DNA of 64,000 nucleotides, taken from assembly GCA_020629635.1 (NCBI GenBank), contig JAHDCX010000010.1:1-64000 (forward strand), read 5' to 3'. This DNA comes from Acidimicrobiales bacterium. Its GTDB lineage: Bacteria; Actinomycetota; Acidimicrobiia; Acidimicrobiales; SHLQ01. A program made the translations under genes and the position numbers. The notes under the pieces are model-generated. The model was not told where the DNA came from. It worked only from the letters and a program-made list of their open reading frames with translations, and searched no databases. Position 1 is the stretch's first letter, and every line of letters begins with the position of its first letter. This document shows, piece by piece, positions 10,888 through 33,919 of this stretch.

Positions 10888-10916
10888 GTGGACCGTTCGA
10901 CCGAAGGATGCTTCGT

Positions 10917-12446
10917 ATGGCCGGTTCCAGTCACTCGTTTGAAGAGAACCAGGCTGCTGCGAGTGAACACCTCGCCCGCTTCGCCGAGTCACCGCTCCTT
11001 CACCTGATCGGTGGCCAGGCGACGCCGAGCGCGAGCGGCGACACTTTCGCCAACGTCTCGCCCATCGACGGAATGCACCTGGGCGACGTTGCGGCCGGAG
11101 ATGCCGTCGACATCGCCGCGGCCGCCGATGCCGCCGCCGACGCCTTCGGCGAGTGGAGCACGACGCCCGGAGTCCGGCGTAAGGCGATCCTCCACGACGT
11201 CGCCGACCTGCTCGAAGAGCGTGCGCACCAGATCGCCGTCACCGAGTGCGTCGACACCGGCCAGACGATGCGCTTCATGAGCGCCGCAGCCTTGCGCGGC
11301 GCCGCCAACTTCCGGTTCTTCGCCGATCAGGCCCCGAGCGCAGCTGACGGGCTTTCCCTGCCGAGCGCCGACCACGTCAACTACACGACTCGCCACCCGA
11401 TCGGTCCCGTCGGCGTGATCACGCCGTGGAACACCCCGTTCATGCTCTCCACCTGGAAGATCGCGCCGGCGCTCGCTGCCGGATGCACCGTCGTGCACAA
11501 GCCGGCCGAGTGGAGTCCGTTCACGGCGCACCTGCTCGCCGAGACGGCACACGAAGCCGGGCTGCCCGCCGGCGCCCTCAACGTCGTCCACGGCTTGGGC
11601 GAAACGGCCGGCAAGTCGCTCACCGAGCACCCAGCCATCAAGGCGATCGCCTTCGTCGGTGAGTCGTCGACCGGCTCGATGATCCAGGCACAAGGCGCGC
11701 CGACGCTCAAGCGAGTGCACTTCGAACTCGGCGGCAAGAATCCGGTCGTCGTCTTCGACGACGCCGACCTCGAGCGCGCCGCCGACGCCGTCGTCTTCAT
11801 GATCTACAGCCTCAACGGCGAACGGTGCACGAGTTCGAGTCGGGTCCTGATCCAGGAGTCGATCCACGACGAGTTCGTCGAGCGCATCGCCGAGAAGATG
11901 CGCAACGTGCCTGTCGGCCACCCGCTCGATCCGAGCGCCGTGATCGGGCCGCTGATCCATCCGCGGCATCACGACAAGGTCTGCAGCTATCGAGAGATCG
12001 CCGAAGCCGACGGCGCCACCGTCATCGAGGGCACCCCATGGGCTGACGCGCCCGACGGCGGTCAGTGGGTCGCCCCGATGTTGTTCACCGGTGCGACCAA
12101 CGACATGCGGATCGCCCAAGAGGAGATCTTCGGGCCCGTCCTCACGGCGATCCCGTTCACCGACGAGGCCGACGCCATTACGATCGCCAACGACATCGAC
12201 TACGGGCTCGCCGGCTACTTGTGGACCGGAGACGTCGGACGGGCACACCGCGTCGCCCACGCACTCGACGCCGGCATGATCTGGGTCAACAGCCAGAACG
12301 TCCGCCACCTGCCGACACCATTCGGTGGGACGAAGGCTTCCGGCATCGGCCGCGATGGCGGCGACTGGAGCTTCGATTTCTACATGGAAACCAAGAACAT
12401 CTCCGTCGCGCTCAACACGCACGCCATCCCCAAGCTCGGAGGCTGA
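10917..12446 (+). CDS. hpaE: 5-carboxymethyl-2-hydroxymuconate-semialdehyde dehydrogenase
   Basis: A 509-residue NAD-dependent aldehyde dehydrogenase. Visible motifs: cofactor segment P-W-N-T-P-F with K of H-K-P-A-E-W-S, G-E-S-S-T-G, general base Glu in F-E-L-G-G-K-N-P, and the catalytic Cys in N-G-E-R-C-T. HpaE oxidises the ring-cleavage semialdehyde to 5-carboxymethyl-2-hydroxymuconate. ATG at 10917 has GAAGGA 9 nt upstream; the ATG at 10908 is too close to that site. It is followed 2 nt later by ligA, so substrate production and use are co-transcribed. Without context it would be just an aldehyde dehydrogenase. Confidence 0.88.
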   Translation: MAGSSHSFEENQAAASEHLARFAESPLLHLIGGQATPSASGDTFANVSPIDGMHLGDVAAGDAVDIAAAADAAADAFGEWSTTPGVRRKAILHDVADLLEERAHQIAVTECVDTGQTMRFMSAAALRGAANFRFFADQAPSAADGLSLPSADHVNYTTRHPIGPVGVITPWNTPFMLSTWKIAPALAAGCTVVHKPAEWSPFTAHLLAETAHEAGLPAGALNVVHGLGETAGKSLTEHPAIKAIAFVGESSTGSMIQAQGAPTLKRVHFELGGKNPVVVFDDADLERAADAVVFMIYSLNGERCTSSSRVLIQESIHDEFVERIAEKMRNVPVGHPLDPSAVIGPLIHPRHHDKVCSYREIAEADGATVIEGTPWADAPDGGQWVAPMLFTGATNDMRIAQEEIFGPVLTAIPFTDEADAITIANDIDYGLAGYLWTGDVGRAHRVAHALDAGMIWVNSQNVRHLPTPFGGTKASGIGRDGGDWSFDFYMETKNISVALNTHAIPKLGG

Positions 12447-12448
12447 CG

Positions 12449-12796
12449 ATGTCGCTCTACTACGTGCAGAAGTTCCTCTACGAACTCAATCGGGACGAAA
12501 CCGTCCAGACCGCCTACCGCTCCGATCGTCACGCCCCGCTCGAGCCGTACGATCTGACCGACGAAGAGATCCGGGCGCTCACCGAGCCAGACATCGGGTT
12601 GCTGTTTCATCTGGGTGTCAACGGCCAGATCCTCATGCACTTCGCGGCATTCCATCAGATCGAATGGCAGGACTACCTCCAGCGCATGCGCGACGGCATC
12701 GAGACCCATGGTCCGGTGCGCGAAGGGGTGTACGCAATGACGGGCTACGAAGGCACCGACGCTCACGCCGAGCGGCTCGGTCAGAAGGGAAGCTGA
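12449..12796 (+). CDS. ligA: LigA-type small subunit of extradiol dioxygenase
   Basis: A 115-residue helical protein resembling the alpha subunit of protocatechuate 4,5-dioxygenase (LigA), with L-G-V-N-G-Q and F-H-Q-I-E-W features. In LigAB enzymes this subunit lids the active site of the LigB-type catalytic subunit. It starts 2 nt after hpaE and overlaps the ligB start by 1 nt (TGATG), implying stoichiometric translation. In the hpa setting the complex most likely cleaves homoprotocatechuate rather than protocatechuate; this is inference. Confidence 0.8.
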   Translation: MSLYYVQKFLYELNRDETVQTAYRSDRHAPLEPYDLTDEEIRALTEPDIGLLFHLGVNGQILMHFAAFHQIEWQDYLQRMRDGIETHGPVREGVYAMTGYEGTDAHAERLGQKGS

Positions 12797-13620
12797 TGGC
12801 ACTGGTCTATGCCGGCGTCTGCTCGCACGCGCCGGGCATCACCGGTCGGGCTGACCAGGCCGACCCCGAGGTTCGTGACGCCTTCTATGCCGCGTTCCAT
12901 CAGATGCGCGACGACATCGCAGCAAGTGGAGCGGAGGCGATCGTCGTCATTGCGGCCGAGCATTTCGCCAACTTCTTCATGAACAACATGCCGAGCTTCG
13001 CCATTGGCATGGCCGACTTCTACGACGGTCCGATCGAAGATCCGGGCTGGCTGAAGATCGACAAGTTCCGTGCGCCCGGCAACAAGGACCTCTCGCAACG
13101 CCTCATCACCGAAGTCATGCAGACGGTCGACGTCAGCTATGCCGAGGAGTGGCGATTCGATCACGGCATCGCCGTACCCCTCCACTTTCTGACCCCCACC
13201 TTCGAGCTGCCGGTCATCCCGGTCAACATCAACTGCCAGGGGCCGCCGCTCACGCCGCTGCACCGTGCGTGGGCATTTGGCGAAGCACTGCGCCGCGCCG
13301 CCGACGCGGTGCCGGAGAAGATCGCCATCGTCGGAACGGGCGGCATCAGTCACTGGCCGGCCACCCCCGACTCCGGCAAGATCAACGAGGCGTGGGACCT
13401 CGACTTCCTCGACCGCTGGTGTCGCAACGACAAGGACGCACTGCTCGACTACGACGACCTCACGGTGTACGCCGACGCCGGGCAGGGCGGCTTCGAGATT
13501 CGAACCTTCATCACGGTCAGCGCTGCGGCGGGCGGTGCGACTGGCACCGTGCACTTCACCGCACCGATCCCCATCTTTGCGGTCAGCTGCACGATCGCCA
13601 GCTACGAGCTGCTGGATTGA
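12796..13620 (+). CDS. ligB: Class III (LigB-type) extradiol ring-cleavage dioxygenase
   Basis: A 274-residue LigB-superfamily iron(II) dioxygenase. Metal-binding His residues are seen in C-S-H-A-P-G near the N-terminus and A-E-H-F-A-N-F (about 55-61), and a catalytic His in F-D-H-G-I-A (about 122). It cleaves a catechol ring beside the hydroxyls using O2. Together with the adjacent LigA-type subunit and hpaE/F/G/H, the logical substrate is 3,4-dihydroxyphenylacetate, with product 5-carboxymethyl-2-hydroxymuconate semialdehyde. Starts by TGATG overlap with ligA. Protocatechuate or gallate as substrate cannot be excluded from sequence. Confidence 0.87.
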   Translation: MALVYAGVCSHAPGITGRADQADPEVRDAFYAAFHQMRDDIAASGAEAIVVIAAEHFANFFMNNMPSFAIGMADFYDGPIEDPGWLKIDKFRAPGNKDLSQRLITEVMQTVDVSYAEEWRFDHGIAVPLHFLTPTFELPVIPVNINCQGPPLTPLHRAWAFGEALRRAADAVPEKIAIVGTGGISHWPATPDSGKINEAWDLDFLDRWCRNDKDALLDYDDLTVYADAGQGGFEIRTFITVSAAAGGATGTVHFTAPIPIFAVSCTIASYELLD

Positions 13621-14174: not shown

Positions 14175-15089
14175 ATGCCGGACGAGTCAGTGGTGGAGCG
14201 CGCAGAGATGCTGCTCAGGGTCGGGCGCCCTGCGGAGGCCCGACAACTGCTCGCCTCGACCCCAGATCTCGCCAGCAACGCCGCAGCGATGCTCGTGCTG
14301 GCCGACTCCCTTCGTGGGCTCGGTCAGCACGAGGACGCGTTGGCGGCGGCCGACTCGGTCATTGCGCTCGCTCCCCAATGGGAGGAGGGGTACCTCTCAC
14401 GTGCGGCGATCCTGATCGATCGCCGACAGTACATGGAGGCACTCGACGCATGCGGTGTGGCGCTACAGCTGGCGCCCGACAGCATCCGCGCCCACGGGAC
14501 TTGCGCCGGGATCCTCCTCGACCTCGACAAGTTCGACGAGGCGATGTGGCACGCCAATCGGGTCGTGTCGCTGGCACCGAATCACGAGTTCGGCTGGCTC
14601 CTGCAGGGCGAGATCCTTCTGCGGAGCGAGCGGTCGGTCGAAGCCATCACTTCGGCGAACGCGGCGCTCAGCATCCAACCCAACTCCACCGACGCAAAGT
14701 TCCTCCTGGGCCTGGCCCACTACACGTCCAACCAGCCCGGCGGCGCCACAACCGGCCGCGAGCACATGATCGATGCCCTGCGCCAAGACCCCACCAGTCA
14801 GCACATCGCCGACTTCCTGAAGCGGATGGCGATGCCGCGTCGACTGCAATTTCCGGTCTGGGCGGCCGTGCTCGTCGCTCTTGCGGGTGGCGCCGGGTTC
14901 TTGTTGCTGGCGTGGGCCGGCGCCTGCGTGCATCGTTGGTTCAGCACGCCCAAAGACATTCGTCAGTTGGTCTGGGCCGACCAAGGGGCACGCCGCCGCA
15001 TCATCGCAGGACTCGGCGTGTCGGCACTCGTCGGCATCTTCTTCTTCGCCGTGATGATCGCGGTGATCGTCGAACAGCTCGGCACCTGA
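14175..15089 (+). CDS. TPR protein with two C-terminal membrane segments
   Basis: A 304-residue protein. Residues about 1-210 form TPR-like helical repeats, and two hydrophobic segments lie near 228-250 and 277-300. A cytoplasmic TPR scaffold anchored by a C-terminal hairpin is the likely topology. ATG at 14175 is the natural start. Upstream is a truncated tandem copy; downstream it converges on oleD with a 27-nt gap. No catalytic domain is seen. Partners unknown. Confidence 0.8.
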   Translation: MPDESVVERAEMLLRVGRPAEARQLLASTPDLASNAAAMLVLADSLRGLGQHEDALAAADSVIALAPQWEEGYLSRAAILIDRRQYMEALDACGVALQLAPDSIRAHGTCAGILLDLDKFDEAMWHANRVVSLAPNHEFGWLLQGEILLRSERSVEAITSANAALSIQPNSTDAKFLLGLAHYTSNQPGGATTGREHMIDALRQDPTSQHIADFLKRMAMPRRLQFPVWAAVLVALAGGAGFLLLAWAGACVHRWFSTPKDIRQLVWADQGARRRIIAGLGVSALVGIFFFAVMIAVIVEQLGT

Positions 15090-15116
15090 CCGGGCCAGAG
15101 CCGAGGGCTCGAAGCC

Positions 15117-16091
15117 TCAGCCGCCGAAGGCGTGATGAGCAGCGAGTCGCAGCCAGCCTTCGGCCAAGGTGACCGAGGGTTCCCAGCCCAGCGCCGCGCG
15201 GGTTTCGCGCTGATCGAACCAATGCGCGGTCGACAGCTGCTCGGCCCCGAAGGCGGTCATCGGAGGTTCGCCGTCACGCCCGGTTCGTTCCCACGCAGCT
15301 TCGGCTGCGGCGCCACCGGCGATCGCGACGCGGGCCGGCACGTTGCGCGGACTCCACTCGATGCCCACGGCGTCGGTGATCCGGGCGATCAGTTCGTGCA
15401 CGGTGCGCGGCTCGCCATTCGACACGACGAACGCGCGTCCGGCGACGTCAGGCGCGGCGTCGAGCGCGGCAACGAGCGCCGAGGCCGCGTTGTCGACCCA
15501 CGTCGTGTCCACCAACGCCAGGCCCGACCCGATGAGCGGCATGCGGCCGGATTGGGCTCGGTCGACGATCCGTCCGATCAGCTGTGTGTCGCCGGGACCG
15601 ATCACCAGGTGGGGACGGATCGCGACGACCGGCATCGCCGCCGACGACGCCGCAAGCACCTGCTGCTCGGCGATCGCTTTCGAGGTCGAGTAGTGACCCC
15701 GCGTCTGATCGGGATCGGCCGGTTCGGCGCCTTCGCCGCTGATCGAAGCGCCACCGTGGGCGACGGACGGGCTCGACACGTGAACGAATCGGGCGACGCC
15801 AGCATCGGCGGCCGCAGCGTGGACGTTGGCGGTGCCCGTCACATTGATCGCCTTGAAGTCCTCCCAGTCGCCGACCGGGTCCACCTTTGCCGCCAGATGG
15901 ATGACCCCGTCCACGCCAGCGAGAGCAGCATCGAGCGTGGCTCGATCGGTGATCGAGCCACAGTGCTCTTCGACGCCGTCGAGTCCGGACTCCGAGCGCT
16001 GGAACACCACGACCGAGTCGCCTCGCTCGAGAAGCGCCTCGACCGTGTGTCGACCGAGCAAACTCGTCGCGCCCGTCACGAGCACCCTCAT
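15117..16091 (-). CDS. oleD: OleD-type NAD(P)-dependent reductase (3-beta-HSD family SDR)
   Basis: A 324-residue extended short-chain dehydrogenase. The nucleotide motif T-G-A-T-S-L-L-G-R lies at residues 6-14, and the catalytic Y-S-T-S-K near 145. OleD reduces the beta-keto acid made by OleA to a beta-hydroxy acid in head-to-head long-chain olefin synthesis. ATG at 16091 overlaps the oleBC stop by 4 nt (ATGA); the longer frame with an N-terminal extension is a shadow. Third gene of oleA-oleBC-oleD. Without the neighbours it would be only an NAD-dependent epimerase/dehydratase-family protein. Confidence 0.87.
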   Translation of the reverse strand: MRVLVTGATSLLGRHTVEALLERGDSVVVFQRSESGLDGVEEHCGSITDRATLDAALAGVDGVIHLAAKVDPVGDWEDFKAINVTGTANVHAAAADAGVARFVHVSSPSVAHGGASISGEGAEPADPDQTRGHYSTSKAIAEQQVLAASSAAMPVVAIRPHLVIGPGDTQLIGRIVDRAQSGRMPLIGSGLALVDTTWVDNAASALVAALDAAPDVAGRAFVVSNGEPRTVHELIARITDAVGIEWSPRNVPARVAIAGGAAAEAAWERTGRDGEPPMTAFGAEQLSTAHWFDQRETRAALGWEPSVTLAEGWLRLAAHHAFGG

Positions 16092-18697
16092 GGTGCCTTC
16101 ACCTCGCCACCTTCGAGCACGCGGAGGGCCCACTCGGCCAACGCGCTGCGGTCGATCTTGGAGTTGTGTCGACGGTCGACCGGGAGCGCTGCCACTTCGA
16201 GACAGGTCGCAACGTCCAGACCGACCGCATCAGCCACGGCTTTACGAATCTCGTCGAGACGATCGAGGCTGGACTGCTGGGGCTTCTTCGGCGCGTCGAC
16301 GACTTCCGCGATCACCACGACCACCTGGGCCCCGGGTGGGCCAACCCCGACCGCCGCCGACCGCCGGATCCCATCGAGCACATCGACGGCTCGTTCGATC
16401 GGCACCGGAGCAACCGGTCCACGCGGCGAACAGATCACATGCGCCGTTCGCCCACCGATCCACAGTTGGCCGGCGGCATCGATCGCGCCGATGTCGCCTG
16501 TCGCATGCCAACCGCCCGCAGGAGAGGCGCGGTGTGTGGTGTGCCACAACCGTTCGTAGCCGACCCGCATGTGACCGGCCTGCACCCACACCTCGCCCAG
16601 CGTTCCGGGTGCGTCGGTGATCTGACCCGTGGGTGTGCCGAGCTCGTCGAGCGGGCTCACCGTTGCGTCGACTCCGGGCGCCGGGCGCCCCACGCACACG
16701 CCGATCTCGTCAAGTCCGTCGGTGTCGAGCGATTCGAGTGCCGTCAGGTCGATGCTGGCGACCGGCAGGCATTCGGTCATGCCGTACGGCGTATGCGCTT
16801 CGGCGTTGGGGAGGACGGTGTCGATGGCCGTGCGGAGCAGGTGGGTGGGCACCGGGGCACCGGCCGACAGGAGTAGTCGGACGTGATCGAACGCGGCGCA
16901 GTCCCTGCTGTCGAGCTCGTCGATCGACTCGACGACCTTCAGGATCGCTGCGGGCGAGGCAAACACCATGGTGGCGTCGACCGCCTCGACCGCGTCGAGC
17001 AGTGTGGATGCGTCGAGCGAACCGGGAGCCGACACGTCCATGTCCGGCACCGTCGAGGTCAGGCCCATCGCTGGCCCGTACAGCGCGAATGGGGCGAACG
17101 CCGCAACGAGTGAGTCTTCGGGCGTGATGTCGTAGAGGTCGATCAGGGTCTGGACCTGGGCCCGGATTCGTTCGCCGGTGTAGCGCACGCCCTTGGAGGG
17201 CCCGGTTGACCCGGACGTGAAGACGATCGCCGCCTCGTCGGAGCCCTTCGGGGTGGGAAGCAGGGTGTCGGCGGCCCGGCGTCGGCGCAGACCGGCGAGG
17301 TCGTCCGTCGCGCCGAGGAGCCGGGCCATCGGGCTGCTGAGTGCAGAGCTCGCGATTCGACGGCCCGGCCAGCGCAACGTGCGTGCTGCCGCAAGCGCCT
17401 TTGGGATGCCGATCAGATAATCGGGGTTTGCGACGCGCATCGCCGCACTCATCCGGGTCGGGCCGAGGCCGCCATCGACGAGCACCGGTACAGCGCCCAT
17501 CCGCCAGCAGGCGTACAACGCGACGGCCAGGTCGATCCCCGGCGGCACCATCAGGGCGACTCGGTCGCCGGGAGCGATTGCCGCAACACCAAAGAGCGCC
17601 TCTGCCGTCGCCTGGACGAGGTCGTCGAGTTCGCCGAACGTGACCGAGGTGCCCGCGCCCGCCATCTCGCGAATGGCCACGCGGTCGGCGAGTGCGGGGT
17701 CGCGGAGGCGTTCGGTGAGATCGATCGGCGCAGCCGACGCGTCGGTCGCATCCGATGGCTCGGCACCTCGCGCCGCGATCCAATCGACCACGATGCTCGC
17801 CACGTCGATGTCCTCCGACACGAGATGCCCGGCGCTCGGGTGCCGGTGCACGTCGGCATGGGGGAGTCGGGACTCGAGGTCGTGGAGATAGAGGTCGGAG
17901 AACACCCGATCGCCGGCACCCCAGACGAGCAACGTCGGAAGGTCGCCCAACCCGGTCAGTCCATCGGCGATCGCGTCGAGGGTCGCCGCCGTCGGATGAT
18001 CAGATTCGAGCGGAATGTCCTCGACGAACGTGGCGATCGCTGCCCGCCGCTCGGCCGTGTCGTACGGCGCCAGATAGCCGCGTCGGACCGCAGCTGGCGT
18101 GCGCGGGTTCGACAACTCGAACATGCCGCGGAGGAAGGCGGTCGTGTCGACCGTCGCCCGCCGGAGAATCCCAGGCGTGCGCGCCGTCCGGATCACCGTC
18201 GGGGCAGAGGCGTCTGGCGGCTGGTGGACCGCCGTATTGGTGAGCACGAGCCCGACGAGGTTGATCGGTGAGTCTGTGCGGGCCAGCTCGGCCTGCAGCC
18301 AGCCGAGCGAGACCGGGCCACCCCAGTCGTGGGCCACGACCACCACGTCGCCGCTCAGCTGGAGCGCATCGGTGAGGCCAAGAAGATCCGCGATCCGGTC
18401 GGCGAGTCGCCGGGTCCGGCCGGAACGGGCGGAGTACCCCATGTCGAGCTGATCGGGCGCGATCAGGCGCACGTCGGCCGGGAGCGCAGCCGCCAGGTGC
18501 CGCCACGTGTAGGACCATGTCGGATTGCCGTGCACCGCCAGCACGGTCAGCGCGGCGTCGGTCGGGCCGTTGTCGAGCATGTGCCACCGCACGAGCTCGC
18601 CCGTGTGATCGGGCGCGTCGACGAGGCGCGACCACGACGGATCCCATCCGTCGAGATCTGCTGGTGGAAGTCGGTCCGCCGAATCCGCTGTCGTCAT
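16088..18697 (-). CDS. oleBC: OleB-OleC fusion: beta-lactone decarboxylase plus beta-lactone synthetase
   Basis: An 869-residue two-domain protein. Residues about 1-315 are an alpha/beta hydrolase of haloalkane-dehalogenase type, with nucleophile Asp124 in A-H-D-W-G-G and His291 in S-A-G-H-L. Residues about 325-869 are an AMP-dependent synthetase with T-S-G-S-T-G-P-S-K-G, T-P-Y-G-M-T-E, A-T-G-D-I-G and the terminal Lys in N-S-K-I-D-R. In olefin synthesis OleC turns the beta-hydroxy acid into a cis-beta-lactone with ATP, and OleB decarboxylates it to the cis-olefin. The fusion is known from actinobacteria such as Micrococcus. ATG at 18697 is preferred (16 nt after oleA) over 18742. Confidence 0.9.
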   Translation of the reverse strand: MTTADSADRLPPADLDGWDPSWSRLVDAPDHTGELVRWHMLDNGPTDAALTVLAVHGNPTWSYTWRHLAAALPADVRLIAPDQLDMGYSARSGRTRRLADRIADLLGLTDALQLSGDVVVVAHDWGGPVSLGWLQAELARTDSPINLVGLVLTNTAVHQPPDASAPTVIRTARTPGILRRATVDTTAFLRGMFELSNPRTPAAVRRGYLAPYDTAERRAAIATFVEDIPLESDHPTAATLDAIADGLTGLGDLPTLLVWGAGDRVFSDLYLHDLESRLPHADVHRHPSAGHLVSEDIDVASIVVDWIAARGAEPSDATDASAAPIDLTERLRDPALADRVAIREMAGAGTSVTFGELDDLVQATAEALFGVAAIAPGDRVALMVPPGIDLAVALYACWRMGAVPVLVDGGLGPTRMSAAMRVANPDYLIGIPKALAAARTLRWPGRRIASSALSSPMARLLGATDDLAGLRRRRAADTLLPTPKGSDEAAIVFTSGSTGPSKGVRYTGERIRAQVQTLIDLYDITPEDSLVAAFAPFALYGPAMGLTSTVPDMDVSAPGSLDASTLLDAVEAVDATMVFASPAAILKVVESIDELDSRDCAAFDHVRLLLSAGAPVPTHLLRTAIDTVLPNAEAHTPYGMTECLPVASIDLTALESLDTDGLDEIGVCVGRPAPGVDATVSPLDELGTPTGQITDAPGTLGEVWVQAGHMRVGYERLWHTTHRASPAGGWHATGDIGAIDAAGQLWIGGRTAHVICSPRGPVAPVPIERAVDVLDGIRRSAAVGVGPPGAQVVVVIAEVVDAPKKPQQSSLDRLDEIRKAVADAVGLDVATCLEVAALPVDRRHNSKIDRSALAEWALRVLEGGEVKAP

Positions 18698-18713
18698 GAC
18701 CGTGGCGTGTGGG

Positions 18714-19736
18714 TCACCACTCGATTTCGAGAATCGCGGCATTGATGCCCGAGCCCATGCCCTGGAACATCACGCCGTCGCCCGGCTCGAGCGAGTCCTG
18801 GACGCCCGCGAGCGTGACGGGGATCGCCGCCGGGCCGATGTTGCCGTAGGCGGGGAAGCTGCGCGGAACACGTTCGCCGTCGATCCCCAGCGTGTCGATC
18901 ACTGCCTGGGTGTGGACCTGCGACACCTGGTGAAGGATGTAGTACTTCATGTCGTACCAGCCGTCCTTGTCGCCGGCGTCCTCCCATGCGAGCTTGGCGA
19001 CCTCGGTCCCGGCTTCGAGCAGGCCGCGTGTGTCGGTCTTCATGCCATCGAGCGAGCCCACGCAGAGACGATGATGCTGCGTGGCGGCGCGGAAGAAGCC
19101 GCCCTTGACGCGGTGGCTCCCGGGGTTCTCCGATTGCCGGCCAAGCACCATCGCCGCCGACCCCGACCCGAGCGTCAGCGATGCGAAGTTCTCGAACATG
19201 TCATCGATCGTGGAGTCAGGGGCGAGGAGCTCTTCGATCGTGTTCTCGTGAATCTGACGGGTGCCTTCGCCGTCGACGATCAGCGCGTAGTCGATCTGGC
19301 CCGCGTCGATCATCGTGCCCGCGATATGGATGCCGTTGAGAAAGCCGAGGCAGGCGTTGGAGACGTCGAAGTTGCTGCAGGTCGATGGCAAACCGAGCAG
19401 GTCGTGCACCGTCACGGCGCTCGAAGGTTCGAGACGCTCCCGGCAGACGCTCGTGTCCACCATGAGCCCGATGCGAGAGCGGTCGATGCCGGACGAAACG
19501 ATCGCCTTCTCGCCAGCCATGGCGGCGGCATCCATGAACGAGACGCCATGGGGCCATTGACGCCGTTGTTCAATCCCCGCGAGGGACTGCAACAACCCCG
19601 GCTGGGTGCCGGTGCGCTCGTAGAACGGCGCCAAACGCTCGTCGATCTGATCGGACGTCACGACCTCGGGCGCATCGCACGCCTCGATCGACACGATGGC
19701 CACGTCGTCGAACCTGAAGTTGGCGTTTCCGATCAC
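18714..19736 (-). CDS. oleA: OleA thiolase-fold condensing enzyme
   Basis: A 340-residue KAS III-like thiolase. Cys129 lies in S-N-A-C-L-G-F, His269 in Y-I-L-H-Q-V and Asn299 in Y-G-N-I-G-P, the Cys/His/Asn set of OleA; Glu103 in R-L-E-P-S-S fits the Glu that OleA contributes across the dimer. OleA condenses two acyl-CoAs head to head to a beta-keto acid. GTG at 19736 is chosen because AGGAC lies 9 nt upstream; longer frames run into the divergent DUF3179 gene. First gene of the ole operon. Confidence 0.9.
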   Translation of the reverse strand: MIGNANFRFDDVAIVSIEACDAPEVVTSDQIDERLAPFYERTGTQPGLLQSLAGIEQRRQWPHGVSFMDAAAMAGEKAIVSSGIDRSRIGLMVDTSVCRERLEPSSAVTVHDLLGLPSTCSNFDVSNACLGFLNGIHIAGTMIDAGQIDYALIVDGEGTRQIHENTIEELLAPDSTIDDMFENFASLTLGSGSAAMVLGRQSENPGSHRVKGGFFRAATQHHRLCVGSLDGMKTDTRGLLEAGTEVAKLAWEDAGDKDGWYDMKYYILHQVSQVHTQAVIDTLGIDGERVPRSFPAYGNIGPAAIPVTLAGVQDSLEPGDGVMFQGMGSGINAAILEIEW

Positions 19737-19854
19737 GTTGGAAGTCCTGTCGAAAGTCGAATCCCCGCACACTAGGCGCCCACATCGGGTGATGCAGATC
19801 CCAAGCCGAACGGGATTGGCGGAACAACCGTCGGCCGTGCCGGGTTCGGTTGGC

Positions 19855-20874
19855 ATGCGAATCCGCAAGACTCGCCGGCGAGCGATCCTCGTCGTTCTCG
19901 CTCTACTGACAACGGCCTGCGGCGAAGATCTCACGACGAGCACCGTCACGTCCGACGAGACGGTCGAGCTTCGTCGAGGTGGCTGGCCGAGCGATCTGTT
20001 CGACCCGACACAAACTGGCGAGGACCTTCCCGAGGACTACCGCGAGTCGGTGCCCCGGGATGCGATCAATCCCGTGTACGACCCGAGGTTCGTGGGCCGA
20101 CAGGACGTCACCTGGCCCGACGACGAGCTCGTCATCGGGGTGGTGATCGACGGAGAAGCACGCGCCTATCCGGTGGGCTTCCTGACGTGGCGAGAGATCG
20201 TCATCGACACCCATCGCGGCATACCGACGATGGTCACGTGGTGACCGCTGTGCGGAACGGCGATGGTCCATCGTCGAGAACTCAACGGTGAGGTGCTGAC
20301 GTTCGGCAATCAGGGCGACCTGTTCGAGAACGCCATGACCTGGTTCGACCATGGCACCGGGAGCATCTGGAGCCAACCGACGGGTGAGGCGATCCTTGGC
20401 CCCCTCGCCGGTGCCACAATCGAACTGTTGCCGTCGTCGGTCGCGACGTGGCGAGAGTGGCAGACTCGCTTCCCGGAAACCCTCGCCCTCGAGACCGACA
20501 CTCGCAGCCCCAACTTCAGCATCGACGACCTCAGCGCGGTCGTCGTGCTCGACGACGACTCGGTGGCGGTCACGATCGAACGGCTACGACGAGAACGAAC
20601 CGTTGAGGTGTCACTCTCCGGGCAGCCCGTCCTCGTGGTCCTCGATCCCGTTGTCGACCGGTGGTCGGCCTGGAGCCTCCTCGACGACGAGGGTCGACGG
20701 AGAGACCTGGTCCTCGAGGGCGACCGGCTGATCGACCGGGAAACCGGGGACCGGTGGAACATTGCCTTCGGCAACTCGCTCAGCGGCCGGGACCCGCTCG
20801 AACGTGTCCCGGTCTTCTCGTCGTTCCTCGACGACTACGAACGAATCTTCCCCGACGGTGCCGTCGTCGACTGA
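19855..20874 (+). CDS. DUF3179 lipoprotein with in-frame UGA (predicted selenocysteine 130)
   Basis: A 339-residue protein if UGA at 20242-20244 is read as Sec. The N-terminus is a basic signal peptide (R-R-R) with a lipobox-like T-T-A-C, Cys22. The frame is DUF3179 on both sides of the UGA: before it I-D-G-E-A-R-A-Y-P-V, after it M-V-H-R-R, T-F-G-N-Q-G, T-G-S-I-W-S-Q and P-L-A-G. DUF3179 proteins carry a W-C-P-L-C-G motif; here it reads W-U-P-L-C-G, a TGC-to-TGA difference, with Cys133 kept. No other stop or frameshift occurs over 210 further codons. A SECIS-like hairpin follows at 20258-20276. The alternative is a recent nonsense mutation leaving a 129-residue fragment. Function of DUF3179 is unknown; a U-x-x-C site suggests thiol redox chemistry outside the membrane. 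Confidence 0.72.
20242..20276 (+). promoter_or_regulatory. UGA codon and SECIS-like hairpin in the DUF3179 gene
   Basis: The UGA is at 20242-20244. A hairpin of 8 base pairs (one G-U wobble) pairs 20258-20265 with 20269-20276 around the triloop GUC (20266-20268); if the top pair opens, the loop is GGUCC. The loop begins 21 nt after the UGA. As I recall, bacterial SECIS elements need a stem-loop with its apical loop about 16-37 nt after the UGA and a G in the first two loop positions; the E. coli fdhF loop is GGUC. All criteria are met. The same architecture recurs at 51011-51029. Confidence 0.65.
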
Positions 20875-23554: not shown

Positions 23555-25030
23555 TCAGGAGTCGATCAGCTCATCTGCACCGGCCCACGTGGCGTGCGTG
23601 CCCGACGTGATGCGTTCGGGGAGCCGGATCCGAGCGACCTCCCCTGCGGCGGGATCGGCGGCGTCCCAGATGACGCAGTGTGATTGATCCGACCGCAGAT
23701 CCGAAGTGAACGTGATCAACCAGCCGTCGTCCTCGGCGACCGCTCCGGGGCGAGGCGCCATCACGGTCTCGGAGTTGAACACGCCGGATTCGAGTCGCAC
23801 CGTCGTTTCCGTTCCGGTCCCGAGATCGTGCTTGATCAGCCCCTCGAAGCCGAACCAGCCGTGGCAGGGGAGCGCGTTGAAGCTGTAACGATTCTTCACG
23901 CCGGCACGCGTCTGGTTGATCATGCCGAACTCCATGGTCGTGTCCGACAGCCGTCCTTCGATGGTCGCCCCGGTCCGGAGATTGAACCGCCAGCGATGAG
24001 CGCGGGGCTTCATGCGGTGCATGTCGAGGTAGCGGAACATGAGGTCTTCGAGTGAGTCGCCGGGTTCTGGGTCGGGTGCCGGTTCGTCCTCGAAGAAGCC
24101 GTCGAGCACGATCTCGTCGCCCTCTTCCCACGCGTTGATCCAGTGCAGCACGAAGGTGGGATCGCCCTCGAACCAGCGGATGTCGTCGGCATTTCCCCGC
24201 CGGGGGATGACCGCAAACCGGCTCGCCATGTCCCGATGGAAGCGGGGGGCGTAGTACCCCGCCTCGAGCGCACCGGGGTCCCAGAAGAGCGGGAAGTCGT
24301 TGAGGATCGCGTAGTTCTCGGTGAAGGCCATGTCGTGGGGGAGCCGCGGGCCGGGAAGCGGAATTGGTGTGTAGTGGACGAGCTCCCCATGGCGATCGAC
24401 CACGCCGTAGTGCATGAAGGGGGCCTCGGTCGAGTAGTTGAAGAACAGCAGCTCGCCAGTGCGCGGATCGACCTTGGTGTGTGCTGACACCCCGTCTGCC
24501 GGGAAGGCTCCGCCCCACGTCTCCACGCCGTCGGGTTCGAGCGTGACGGGATCGAGTCGGTAGAGGTCGCCGCACTGATAGAAGCTCGACAGGGCCCGAC
24601 CTCGGTGGACGACCACATCGGTGCTCGACGAGTCCTTCATCATCGTCCGGGCGCCCCAGCCGTGGTCGACGCGGGTCTTGTGGGGCGGCTCGGCGAGACC
24701 GGCCCACAGCGCCTCGCCGGCGTCCTGTTCGGCGAGGAGTCCCGACGTGCGCACGAAACGATTGCGGTAGACGGCCTCGCCGTTGGAGAAGGCGATCGCG
24801 TGGAGCATGCCGTCGCCGTCGAAGGGGTGATAGCGGCCGATCGACGGCATGAGCGGGTTCTCGGTGTTGCGGAGGTAGACGCCGTCGAGGCCCTCGGGGA
24901 TCTCGCCCGTGACCTCGAGATCCCAGGCGTCGTATTCGGTGTCCTGGGGTTTCCACGCCCCGGTCCGGTAGCGGTGATCGTCGTCACCCGGCAGGGTCGA
25001 GACGAACGGGCGTTGCGACTGCACCTTCAT
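23555..25030 (-). CDS. Carotenoid/stilbene cleavage oxygenase
   Basis: A 491-residue RPE65/carotenoid-oxygenase family protein. The four iron-binding His residues can be matched to S-A-H-T-K (about 184), P-H-D-M-A (about 231), L-H-W-I-N (about 297) and T-H-A-T-W near the C-terminus. The family cleaves conjugated double bonds of carotenoids, apocarotenoids or lignin-derived stilbenes with O2. ATG at 25030 overlaps the upstream thiolase stop by 4 nt (ATGA), so they form an operon. The CoA-enzyme neighbours would favour a degradative role over pigment synthesis; that is inference. Confidence 0.9.
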   Translation of the reverse strand: MKVQSQRPFVSTLPGDDDHRYRTGAWKPQDTEYDAWDLEVTGEIPEGLDGVYLRNTENPLMPSIGRYHPFDGDGMLHAIAFSNGEAVYRNRFVRTSGLLAEQDAGEALWAGLAEPPHKTRVDHGWGARTMMKDSSSTDVVVHRGRALSSFYQCGDLYRLDPVTLEPDGVETWGGAFPADGVSAHTKVDPRTGELLFFNYSTEAPFMHYGVVDRHGELVHYTPIPLPGPRLPHDMAFTENYAILNDFPLFWDPGALEAGYYAPRFHRDMASRFAVIPRRGNADDIRWFEGDPTFVLHWINAWEEGDEIVLDGFFEDEPAPDPEPGDSLEDLMFRYLDMHRMKPRAHRWRFNLRTGATIEGRLSDTTMEFGMINQTRAGVKNRYSFNALPCHGWFGFEGLIKHDLGTGTETTVRLESGVFNSETVMAPRPGAVAEDDGWLITFTSDLRSDQSHCVIWDAADPAAGEVARIRLPERITSGTHATWAGADELIDS

Positions 25031-26271
25031 CGGGCGGCCTCCTCGGTTGCTTCGATGACGAAACTCACGGTCGATGCGGTCGAGCCGCCGATGTTGAGGG
25101 TCTGGGCGCGTCGGGCGCCGTCGACTTGGCAGGCGCCGGCGGCCCCGGTCACCTGAGCGACGGCGTCGGCCACCATGCGGGCGCCGGTGGCCCCCACGGG
25201 GTGGCCACCACCGATGAGTCCGCCGCTCGGGTTCACCGGCCGCATCCCGCCGCGGGTGATCGTTCCGGCCTCGACCGCCTGCCAGCTCATCCCGGGGTCG
25301 GTGATCCCGAGATGGTCGATCGCCATGTACTCCGACGGCGTCATGCAGTCGTGGACTTCGGCGAGGTCGACGTGGTCGATTCCGTCGATGCCGGCGCGTG
25401 CCCATGCGTCGGTGATCGCCCGCCGAACGTGGGGCATGACGTAGGGCTCGTGGGGGCGGTCGAGTTTTGATTGGAGCGAAAGGCCGACGGTCGAGTGTCC
25501 CCACCCGGCCACGGTCGCTGCCGGCGTGCGACCACGGTCGCGGAGCCATCGATCAGAGACCAGTACGACGCCAGCGGCGCCGTCGGTGATCTGGCAGCAG
25601 TCGTTGCGGCGCAGCCGTCCGGTCACGATCGGGTTGACGTGATCGTCGGTGCCGAACGAGTCCGAGCTCAGGTTCCACGATCGGGTCTGTGCGTTGGGGT
25701 TGTCCTGCGCGTTTTCGAGATTGATGCGGCCGATCTCACGAAGGTGGCGCTCGTCGAGTCCGTAGCGGGCGTCGTACTCGGCGGCGATCCGGTCGAACGT
25801 CTCTGGCCAGATGAACTCGACGCCGTCGGTCTCCTGCCCGACCCACGCGGCGGCTTCCTGCACCTGGGCGGCTTGTGCGCCCGGCATCGTGCGTTCCTGC
25901 TCGATCCCGAGGACGAGCACGCAGTCGTAGCGGCCGGCCTCGATCTCGGCGCCAGCGGCGAGGATCGCCATCGAGCTCGAGGCGCAGGCCGCCTCATGGC
26001 GCATTGCCGGAACGCCCCAGAGCTCGGGTTCGACCGATGCGGGCATGGCGCCCAGGTGGGTCTGTCCGATGTATTGCCCGCCGAAGGCGTTGCCCACATG
26101 GATCGACTCGATGTCGCTCGCGGCCACGCCCGCCGCGGAGAGCGTGCCATCGAGTGCCTCGCGCATGAGGTCGGCGACATCGTGACCTTCCTTGCGGAGG
26201 TTTCGGGCGAAGTCGCTGCGCCACGTGCCGAGGATCGCGAGATCGTGCGATCGCGTCGGTTGTCCAGCCAT
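25027..26271 (-). CDS. SCP2-type thiolase (lipid-transfer-protein family)
   Basis: A 414-residue thiolase-fold protein of the SCP-x/lipid-transfer type. The nucleophilic-Cys segment is H-E-A-A-C-A-S-S-S (about 87-95), a second conserved His/Cys segment reads E-V-H-D-C-M, and G-G-H-P-V-G-A-T-G lies near the C-terminus. Such enzymes act in sterol or branched-chain acyl-CoA cleavage, including retro-aldol steps. ATG at 26271 is chosen. A near-perfect 19-bp palindrome ends 10 nt upstream, between this gene and a divergent tetR gene, so expression is probably TetR-controlled. Confidence 0.88.
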   Translation of the reverse strand: MAGQPTRSHDLAILGTWRSDFARNLRKEGHDVADLMREALDGTLSAAGVAASDIESIHVGNAFGGQYIGQTHLGAMPASVEPELWGVPAMRHEAACASSSMAILAAGAEIEAGRYDCVLVLGIEQERTMPGAQAAQVQEAAAWVGQETDGVEFIWPETFDRIAAEYDARYGLDERHLREIGRINLENAQDNPNAQTRSWNLSSDSFGTDDHVNPIVTGRLRRNDCCQITDGAAGVVLVSDRWLRDRGRTPAATVAGWGHSTVGLSLQSKLDRPHEPYVMPHVRRAITDAWARAGIDGIDHVDLAEVHDCMTPSEYMAIDHLGITDPGMSWQAVEAGTITRGGMRPVNPSGGLIGGGHPVGATGARMVADAVAQVTGAAGACQVDGARRAQTLNIGGSTASTVSFVIEATEEAAR

Positions 26272-32245: not shown

Positions 32246-33919
32246 ATGAATCGAACGGCGATGATGCGGACAGTCGGCGGCGCGCTGGTGGCCTTGGCGA
32301 TCGTCTTGATCACCAACAACGCGGCCTCGGCACAGGCAGGCACGGCAACGGTCAACGTCCGGGTTGAGTACCCGAACGGCGCACTTGTCAACGACATGAA
32401 TGTGTGCGTCGTCGGGTCCGAGGTGCTCGCTGACGGAACACTCGCGAACATTCCGATGTTCGACCGCTCGACGTATCTGGTCGGTGGACGACTCGATACG
32501 CCATCCGGTCCGAGCGGGACGTACACGGTGCCTGCGAACACGCCACTGCTCGTTGCCGCATTCTCGTGCGGTGAACACTTCGGACTGTTGCCGCACGTCC
32601 TCAACGAATCGGCGGTCGGGCTCTTCGAGCCGTCGCTCGACATCACTCGGCAGGCAATCCGGCCCGCACCGGGGGAAGTGATCGACCTCACGCTTCCGAT
32701 GACTGTTGGCACCATCGAGGGCCGCGTCCCGGCCAACTTCGCGCACCCCGCATGTTCGATTCACGCCATCGGGATTCCGGACCACGGTCTGCCGTATGAG
32801 CACCAGCTCGCCACGACGAACACTACGACGGGCACCTACGAGCTTCGCGTTCCGGCCGGCGAGTATCGAGTGGAGATCCGTTGCTCCTACGGCGTCGGCC
32901 ACTATCCAGCAGGTGGTGCACTCGACTCGCCCGAGCGAATCCGAGTTGATCATGGGCAGCGTGTCACTGGAGCGAACGTCGGGCCGTTGACCGGTGGCGA
33001 TTGGCGGTACGTGCACGTGCCCGTGGCCGAACTGAGCCAACAGGCAACCGTGTGCATCGACACGGTCTCGACCGGAGGGGTGCGGCTCCACCGAGACATC
33101 AGTCAGGCGGGGCGCTACGCATTCGACGACCGCACCATCGTGCGAGTCCCCGTGGATCAGCCGATGAAGCTTCGGTTCTGGGACTGCGCTGACTTGGGAT
33201 TCGACGACGTGTGGTATCCCGATGCCGCAGACCTCGCGTCTGCCGAGTCGGTGATCGCTCCGTCGAACGATGACGTGTTCAGGATCGAGCTTCCCGAGAC
33301 GGTCACGTTCTTCGGGACGGCCGCCAGCCAATGCGATGGGCGAGTGCCCACGATTTTCGGCGGCCCCGGTTCTGATGTCCTCGTTGGCACTCCTGGACCG
33401 GACGTGATCATGTCGTTCGGCGGCGACGACCACATCACCTCGTTCGGCGGCGACGACGTGATCTGCGCCGGTGCCGGAGCGGACTTCGTCGACTCGGGCG
33501 ACGGCGACGACCGACTCTTTGGCGAGGCCGACCGCGACAGGCTGTTCGGTGGCTCTGGCAACGACTACTTCAAGGGCGGAAGTGGAAGCGACTACATGGT
33601 CGGACACGGCGGCGCGGACGAGTTCTACGGAGGCGGACACCGTGACCGCATCAAGGGCGGGAAGGGCCCCGACTTCATCGCTGGGAACCAGGGCCGAGAT
33701 CGGATCGAAGGTGGGCCGGGCAACGACACCATCTATGGCAACGCCAAGGCCGACTGGATTCGCGGTGAGGACGGCAACGACACGATCATCGGCGGACACG
33801 GCAACGACCTCATCGAGGGAGGCAGTGGCGACGATCGCATCTTCGGCTCTGGCGGGGCGGATCGATGCTCGTCGACAGGCGTTCTGGCAACCTTCGACAA
33901 CTGCGAACTCCGTCGTTAG
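32246..33919 (+). CDS. Secreted RTX-repeat calcium-binding protein
   Basis: A 557-residue exported protein. A signal peptide spans about 1-30 (ends A-S-A-Q-A). Residues about 33-360 look like beta-sandwich regulatory-type domains with several Cys. Residues about 370-545 carry at least eight RTX-type nonapeptides (G-G-x-G-x-D-x-I/L pattern, e.g. G-G-S-G-N-D-Y-F and G-G-P-G-N-D-T-I), which bind calcium as a parallel beta roll. GGAAGG at 32232-32237 supports ATG 32246. No hydrolase domain is recognised, so it may be a surface-layer, adhesion or matrix protein. Confidence 0.85.
   Translation: MNRTAMMRTVGGALVALAIVLITNNAASAQAGTATVNVRVEYPNGALVNDMNVCVVGSEVLADGTLANIPMFDRSTYLVGGRLDTPSGPSGTYTVPANTPLLVAAFSCGEHFGLLPHVLNESAVGLFEPSLDITRQAIRPAPGEVIDLTLPMTVGTIEGRVPANFAHPACSIHAIGIPDHGLPYEHQLATTNTTTGTYELRVPAGEYRVEIRCSYGVGHYPAGGALDSPERIRVDHGQRVTGANVGPLTGGDWRYVHVPVAELSQQATVCIDTVSTGGVRLHRDISQAGRYAFDDRTIVRVPVDQPMKLRFWDCADLGFDDVWYPDAADLASAESVIAPSNDDVFRIELPETVTFFGTAASQCDGRVPTIFGGPGSDVLVGTPGPDVIMSFGGDDHITSFGGDDVICAGAGADFVDSGDGDDRLFGEADRDRLFGGSGNDYFKGGSGSDYMVGHGGADEFYGGGHRDRIKGGKGPDFIAGNQGRDRIEGGPGNDTIYGNAKADWIRGEDGNDTIIGGHGNDLIEGGSGDDRIFGSGGADRCSSTGVLATFDNCELRR

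Follow-up and report, generated by a model that had tools for sequence, protein, structure and literature searches.

A preliminary description of the window (the whole stretch of DNA that was analysed, 64,000 nucleotides from an Acidimicrobiales bacterium) placed an oleA-oleBC-oleD operon at positions 15117-19736. This raises the question of what the three genes are likely to make, and of where the fused oleBC gene arose.

Organization of the ole genes

The ORF listing gave three minus-strand ORFs at the locus (15117-16133, 16088-18742 and a third ending at 18714), within which the following genes and domains were assigned:

oleA: 18714-19736, minus strand; thiolase-fold acyl-CoA condensing enzyme, 340 aa, GTG start
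oleBC fusion: 16088-18742, minus strand; 884 aa from ATG 18742, single open frame, two Pfam domains
OleB domain: 17768-18640, minus strand; residues about 35-325, haloalkane-dehalogenase-like predicted beta-lactone decarboxylase
OleB-OleC linker: 17711-17767, minus strand; residues about 326-344, pLDDT below 50 at 328-334
OleC domain: 16091-17710, minus strand; residues 345-884, adenylate-forming predicted beta-lactone synthetase
oleD: 15117-16091, minus strand; predicted NAD(P)-dependent 2-alkyl-3-oxoalkanoate reductase, 324 aa

The most plausible start of oleA is GTG 19736, which has AGGA eight bases upstream and coincides with the limit given in the preliminary description. ATG 18742 of oleBC falls within oleA, and translation of the fusion may instead begin at ATG 18697, directly past the oleA stop, which would yield 869 aa. 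The ATG of oleD at 16091 overlaps the oleBC stop (ATGA). Such tight packing is compatible with a single operon, as predicted from the layout. A scan of 14900-20100 found no sigma-70-like promoter; the promoter and terminator scans returned 0 and 1 sites, respectively, no more than in shuffled sequences, and the window contained no Rfam match at the gathering score and no tRNA.

When related loci were compared, the order oleA, oleB, oleC, oleD on one strand was found in 113 of 127 (105 fused, 8 split), which excludes chance as the source of the gene set; together with the ORFs and the family matches, this order bears out the operon as first described. The genes, their domains, their residues and their conserved order were all observed directly. 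When larger regions around the locus were compared in 12 relatives, oleBC and oleD (12/12) and oleA (11/12) were common to the whole family; oleA is absent from the remaining region (L161) because the contig ends before reaching the gene. Additional operon genes were considered and rejected, the ole trio being the sole genes common across the family in these regions. Other ORF groups, present in 7 to 10 of 13 sources, sit on the strand opposite the ole genes.

Catalytic residues and the predicted pathway

The genome of the window has five ACP_syn_III_C matches, and the copy in the window is the one examined as the condensing enzyme. OleA scored above the cut-off of NCBIfam NF006720 (427 bits against 285) and aligned over its full length with the OleA structures 3s21 and 3row (phmmer, E 3e-84), the catalytic Glu, Cys, His and Asn lying in register with 3row; E103, C129, H269 and N299 were present in 70 of 70 aligned rows, 67 of which differ. 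The catalytic Cys and Asn known for OleA are Cys143 and Asn315. Glu117 and His285 are given in titles from the reference list of PMC7064751.

OleB and OleC are fused as had been proposed, in one open frame with B preceding C, and carry Abhydrolase_1 (residues 67-310) and AMP-binding (353-729) domains. The structure model of OleBC (mean pLDDT 89.9, pTM 0.87) consists of two confident domains, with pLDDT falling below 50 solely at residues 1-20 and in the linker stretch noted above. The OleB half aligned to haloalkane dehalogenases and to DhmeA (8ckp), and its pentad of N73, D139, W140, D278 and H306 was invariant in 31 rows (the window and 30 fused relatives). This pentad matches that of subfamily III, reported for DhmeA as N63, D129, W130, D258 and H286 (PMC10503415); the OleB half is an alpha/beta hydrolase that has the Asp nucleophile.

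When the best 50 Foldseek rows by E-value were inspected, all were adenylate-forming enzymes matching the larger half of OleBC. The OleC motifs comprise TSGSTGPSK (509-517), YGMTE (653-657), D750, R765 and K862, of which residues 509-511, 513-515, 517, 653-657, D750, R765 and Lys862 were invariant in the same 31 rows. By fold and motifs the OleC half is an adenylate-forming enzyme, and its role as a beta-lactone synthetase is predicted. All 70 OleD rows carry the SDR-type Ser-Tyr-Lys set (S106, Y134, K138); in 43 of the 70, window included, Ser takes the place of the second glycine in the nucleotide loop. The residues of the four activities are thus invariant in the aligned relatives, in agreement with the preliminary statement that all catalytic motifs are present.

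Family models gave lower scores for these two enzymes. For OleBC, the highest-scoring NCBIfam model was NF006754, which describes fatty acid CoA ligases in general (347 bits, cut-off 478); two olefin beta-lactone synthetase models came next, both short of their curated cut-offs (NF045786, 283 of 900 bits, and another, 244 of 850). The top match of OleD, NF042422 (OleD, 2-alkyl-3-oxoalkanoate reductase), likewise fell below its cut-off (297 bits, cut-off 580), as did a second OleD model (230 of 580 bits); the names of the OleC and OleD models indicate Xanthomonas- and Shewanella-type proteins. These scores, with the general CoA ligase model ranking above the OleC models, could be taken to mean that the operon is devoted to a different lipid (long-chain ketones, for instance, or a modified beta-hydroxy acid) and that one half of OleBC has changed in specificity; OleA by itself does give rise to ketones through spontaneous decarboxylation (PMC6463001). 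We regard this as extremely unlikely, however, given that the genes for all four activities lie side by side on one strand, that relatives share their order and that the catalytic residues are invariant.

We are confident that oleA-oleBC-oleD is instead a functional operon, one that most likely leads to long-chain internal olefins by the known route of OleA, OleD, OleC and OleB to a cis internal olefin (PMC7158056; PMC7064751). We infer the reaction steps, their products and their location in the cell from published relatives. In this scheme, OleA would join two fatty acyl-CoAs head to head, without decarboxylation, to give a beta-keto acid, which OleD would reduce to a beta-hydroxy acid. This product would then be adenylated and closed to a beta-lactone by the OleC half; removal of CO2 by the OleB half would finally yield a long-chain cis internal olefin, which is probably destined for the membrane. 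The fusion would couple the last two steps, and may pass the labile lactone directly from OleC to OleB. Nothing found in the window points to a route other than OleA-OleD-OleC-OleB. The full ole set and the intact motifs support long-chain internal olefins as the predicted product, as first suggested, although the proposed size of C25-C31 has no basis in the sequence; pathway arithmetic gives C19-C27, an overlap that lends the range no support.

The preliminary description also allowed for beta-lactones should the hydrolase be slow, and a slow or inactive OleB domain would indeed leave a beta-lactone as the end product. Clusters of the oleACD type, as for lipstatin and nocardiolactone, lack oleB and yield beta-lactones (PMC7064751). 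In contrast, the window has an intact OleB domain with a high-confidence structure model, in which all five residues of the pentad are invariant; a beta-lactone end product is unsupported because these residues are intact, and we consider it very unlikely.

Distribution and origin of the fused operon

Xanthomonas oleABCD encodes the same four activities, and its OleA structure aligns with the window protein over the full length; there, oleB and oleC are separate and unfused. The Micrococcales oleA-oleBC-oleD operon (Micrococcus luteus type) shares with the window its gene order, the OleBC fusion (KEGG K25044; PMC13170169) and the catalytic residues. Two Micrococcaceae rows (L060 and L075, respectively; the comparison does not include the M. 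luteus sequence itself) were 49.7 and 48.5% identical to the window in OleA, 52.9 and 54.4% in the OleB part, 45.9 and 46.5% in the OleC part and 55.0 and 54.4% in OleD, and occupied a separate branch of the joined tree. In the same tree, the nearest group to the window not labelled Actinomycetota, save single Acidobacteria-labelled records, was Granulosicoccus (Gammaproteobacteria), a member of a different phylum; OleA from its seven operons was 64.6-66.4% identical to that of the window, whereas the five operons compared from the window's own genus are closer (73.4-82.1%). OleA of G. antarcticus has been shown to be active, and the oleBC fusion has been published for Granulosicoccus and, typically, Micrococcales (PMC7064751). 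The pathway and the fused enzyme are thus already known, and the window operon adds a member with the chemistry unchanged.

A survey of the class found OleBC matches at 1e-40 in 23 of 148 genomes, the window's own included; 18 encode a single-frame fusion (one of which, L016, has a TGA inside the matched stretch), 2 have separate oleB and oleC (G046 and G050), in 1 (G145) the two parts lie on separate contigs, and the remaining 2 match over the OleC half alone. Across the phylum, 28 of 396 genomes matched at 1e-60. Within the window's family, matches at 1e-40 were found in 13 of 19 genomes, own genome included, and not in the other 6, so either the family can do without the operon or gaps in the assemblies hid it. 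A scan of named genomes with the window's fused protein, from which the best 80 of 535 relatives were kept, included among others Acidimicrobiales, Micrococcales, Propionibacteriaceae, Nitriliruptoraceae and Granulosicoccus. The 127 loci include some positions that occur in both of two collections; they comprise 113 fusions, 8 split pairs, 5 with OleC only and 1 (L034) without an OleC match, its G145 contig breaking off within the gene. Two fused loci have their best match on the other strand. L040 (uncultured Acidimicrobiales bacterium) and L151 (the window's genus) are identical in the joined alignment, which is the basis for placing the window probably in this order.

Two genomes of the class that are 98% and 97% complete (G084 and G096, loci L200 and L201) have oleBC-oleD and no OleA match at 1e-30; upstream of these genes, ten ORFs were scanned and no thiolase family was found. 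Their OleBC and OleD may draw a beta-keto acid from another source.

In the literature, oleBC and oleC genes are reported in 46 MAGs from many phyla including Actinobacteriota, and the main text does not name Acidimicrobiia (PMC13170169). Among the papers listed, none was found by title or the start of the abstract to be about the ole genes of Acidimicrobiia, and both the class name and ole or olefin words occur in papers such as PMC10949947, PMC12133861 and PMC12355879; because this check rests on titles and abstract starts, no claim of a first occurrence in the class is made. A known hydrocarbon pathway, for whose fusion PMC7064751 names typically Micrococcales, is now placed in an uncultured actinobacterial class, and diverged OleBC fusions become available for structural work.

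Of the 80 rows in the OleC tree, 68 are fused, and these formed one side of a branch with a support of 100 (SH-aLRT), which within this sample fits one fusion event. The 80 rows were taken from 125 after 45, mostly Arthrobacter-, Brachybacterium- and Microbacterium-like or from the window's family and the phylum survey, had been removed by hand; the 12 unfused rows all come from the same phylum, and the sample leans toward relatives of the window. This sampling would have missed a second fusion of a different kind elsewhere, since the named fused rows were the 80 sequences that best matched the fused protein of the window.

The joined A-B-C-D tree of 70 rows placed nine Granulosicoccaceae rows (seven distinct operons) in a 24-row group with a support of 100; the other 15 rows, the window among them, are Acidimicrobiales by title or kinship. 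Forcing Granulosicoccaceae with nine Micrococcales-type rows (one labelled Acidobacteria) was 309 log-likelihood units worse (p-AU 7e-40), and forcing them with the nine-row Propionibacteriaceae/Intrasporangiaceae group was 289 units worse (p-AU 4e-45); these p values are optimistic because the groups were picked after the joined tree had been seen. Every tree comes from a fast search run without bootstrap, the joined tree and constraint tests being run under plain LG+G4. By sequence, then, the Granulosicoccaceae operons group with the Acidimicrobiales of the window and not with Micrococcales. A clade of 14 Acidimicrobiales rows that excludes Granulosicoccaceae was not rejected (p 0.468), so that Granulosicoccaceae may be nested in Acidimicrobiales or sister to them, and we infer the direction of transfer.

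The Granulosicoccus fusion has been described as the first outside Actinobacteria and as a possible gene transfer (PMC7064751). The gene occurs in 8 of 48 genomes in the family of one Granulosicoccus genome (that of L044), a patchy distribution of the kind expected for an acquired operon; one copy in the family lies beyond 5.5 Mb within a single contig, and that copy is therefore no binning error. The trees suggest relatives of the window organism as the probable donors of the ole copy in some bacteria of another phylum. On balance, we lean towards a single oleBC fusion that took place in the ancestor shared by Acidimicrobiia and Actinomycetes, or close to it, with the Granulosicoccus operon derived from the Acidimicrobiales lineage of the window rather than from Micrococcales. 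This likely source offers a testable origin for the Granulosicoccus operon and is the sole part that specialists may not expect; if true, uncultured Acidimicrobiales would be little-noticed producers of biogenic olefins and a little-noticed origin from which the pathway spread to other bacteria.

Fused oleBC was also seen on two records labelled Acidobacteria, of which L043 falls among Acidimicrobiia and L079 adjoins Micrococcaceae in the trees; given these positions, the records may be mislabelled or misbinned.

Genes neighbouring the ole locus

In the regions of the 12 relatives, the neighbouring genes for histidine phosphatase, DUF3179 and LigA/LigB turned up solely where the relative belongs to the window's genus. 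The DUF3179 gene (19855-20874, plus strand) diverges from oleA and appears as two ORFs owing to an in-frame TGA at 20242-20244. The TGA sits in the motif TW-U-PLC (UxxC) and is kept in all 4 of the 12 relatives with the gene beside ole (L159, L162, L163 and L164); the window's genome has SelB and tRNA-Sec matches above their cut-offs. DUF3179 with UxxC/T is an already listed selenoprotein family (PMC9312934; PMC13188914).

On the other side of the ole genes, a set of meta-cleavage genes (10908-13620, plus strand) encodes an HpaE-type semialdehyde dehydrogenase, above cut-off, and LigA-like and LigB-like dioxygenase subunits; LigB was found near ole in 4 of 6 genus members. The window also encodes a member of the carotenoid/lignostilbene cleavage oxygenase family (23558-25549, minus strand; RPE65, E 5e-119) and a 557-aa protein with RTX calcium-binding nonapeptide repeats (32246-33919, plus strand).
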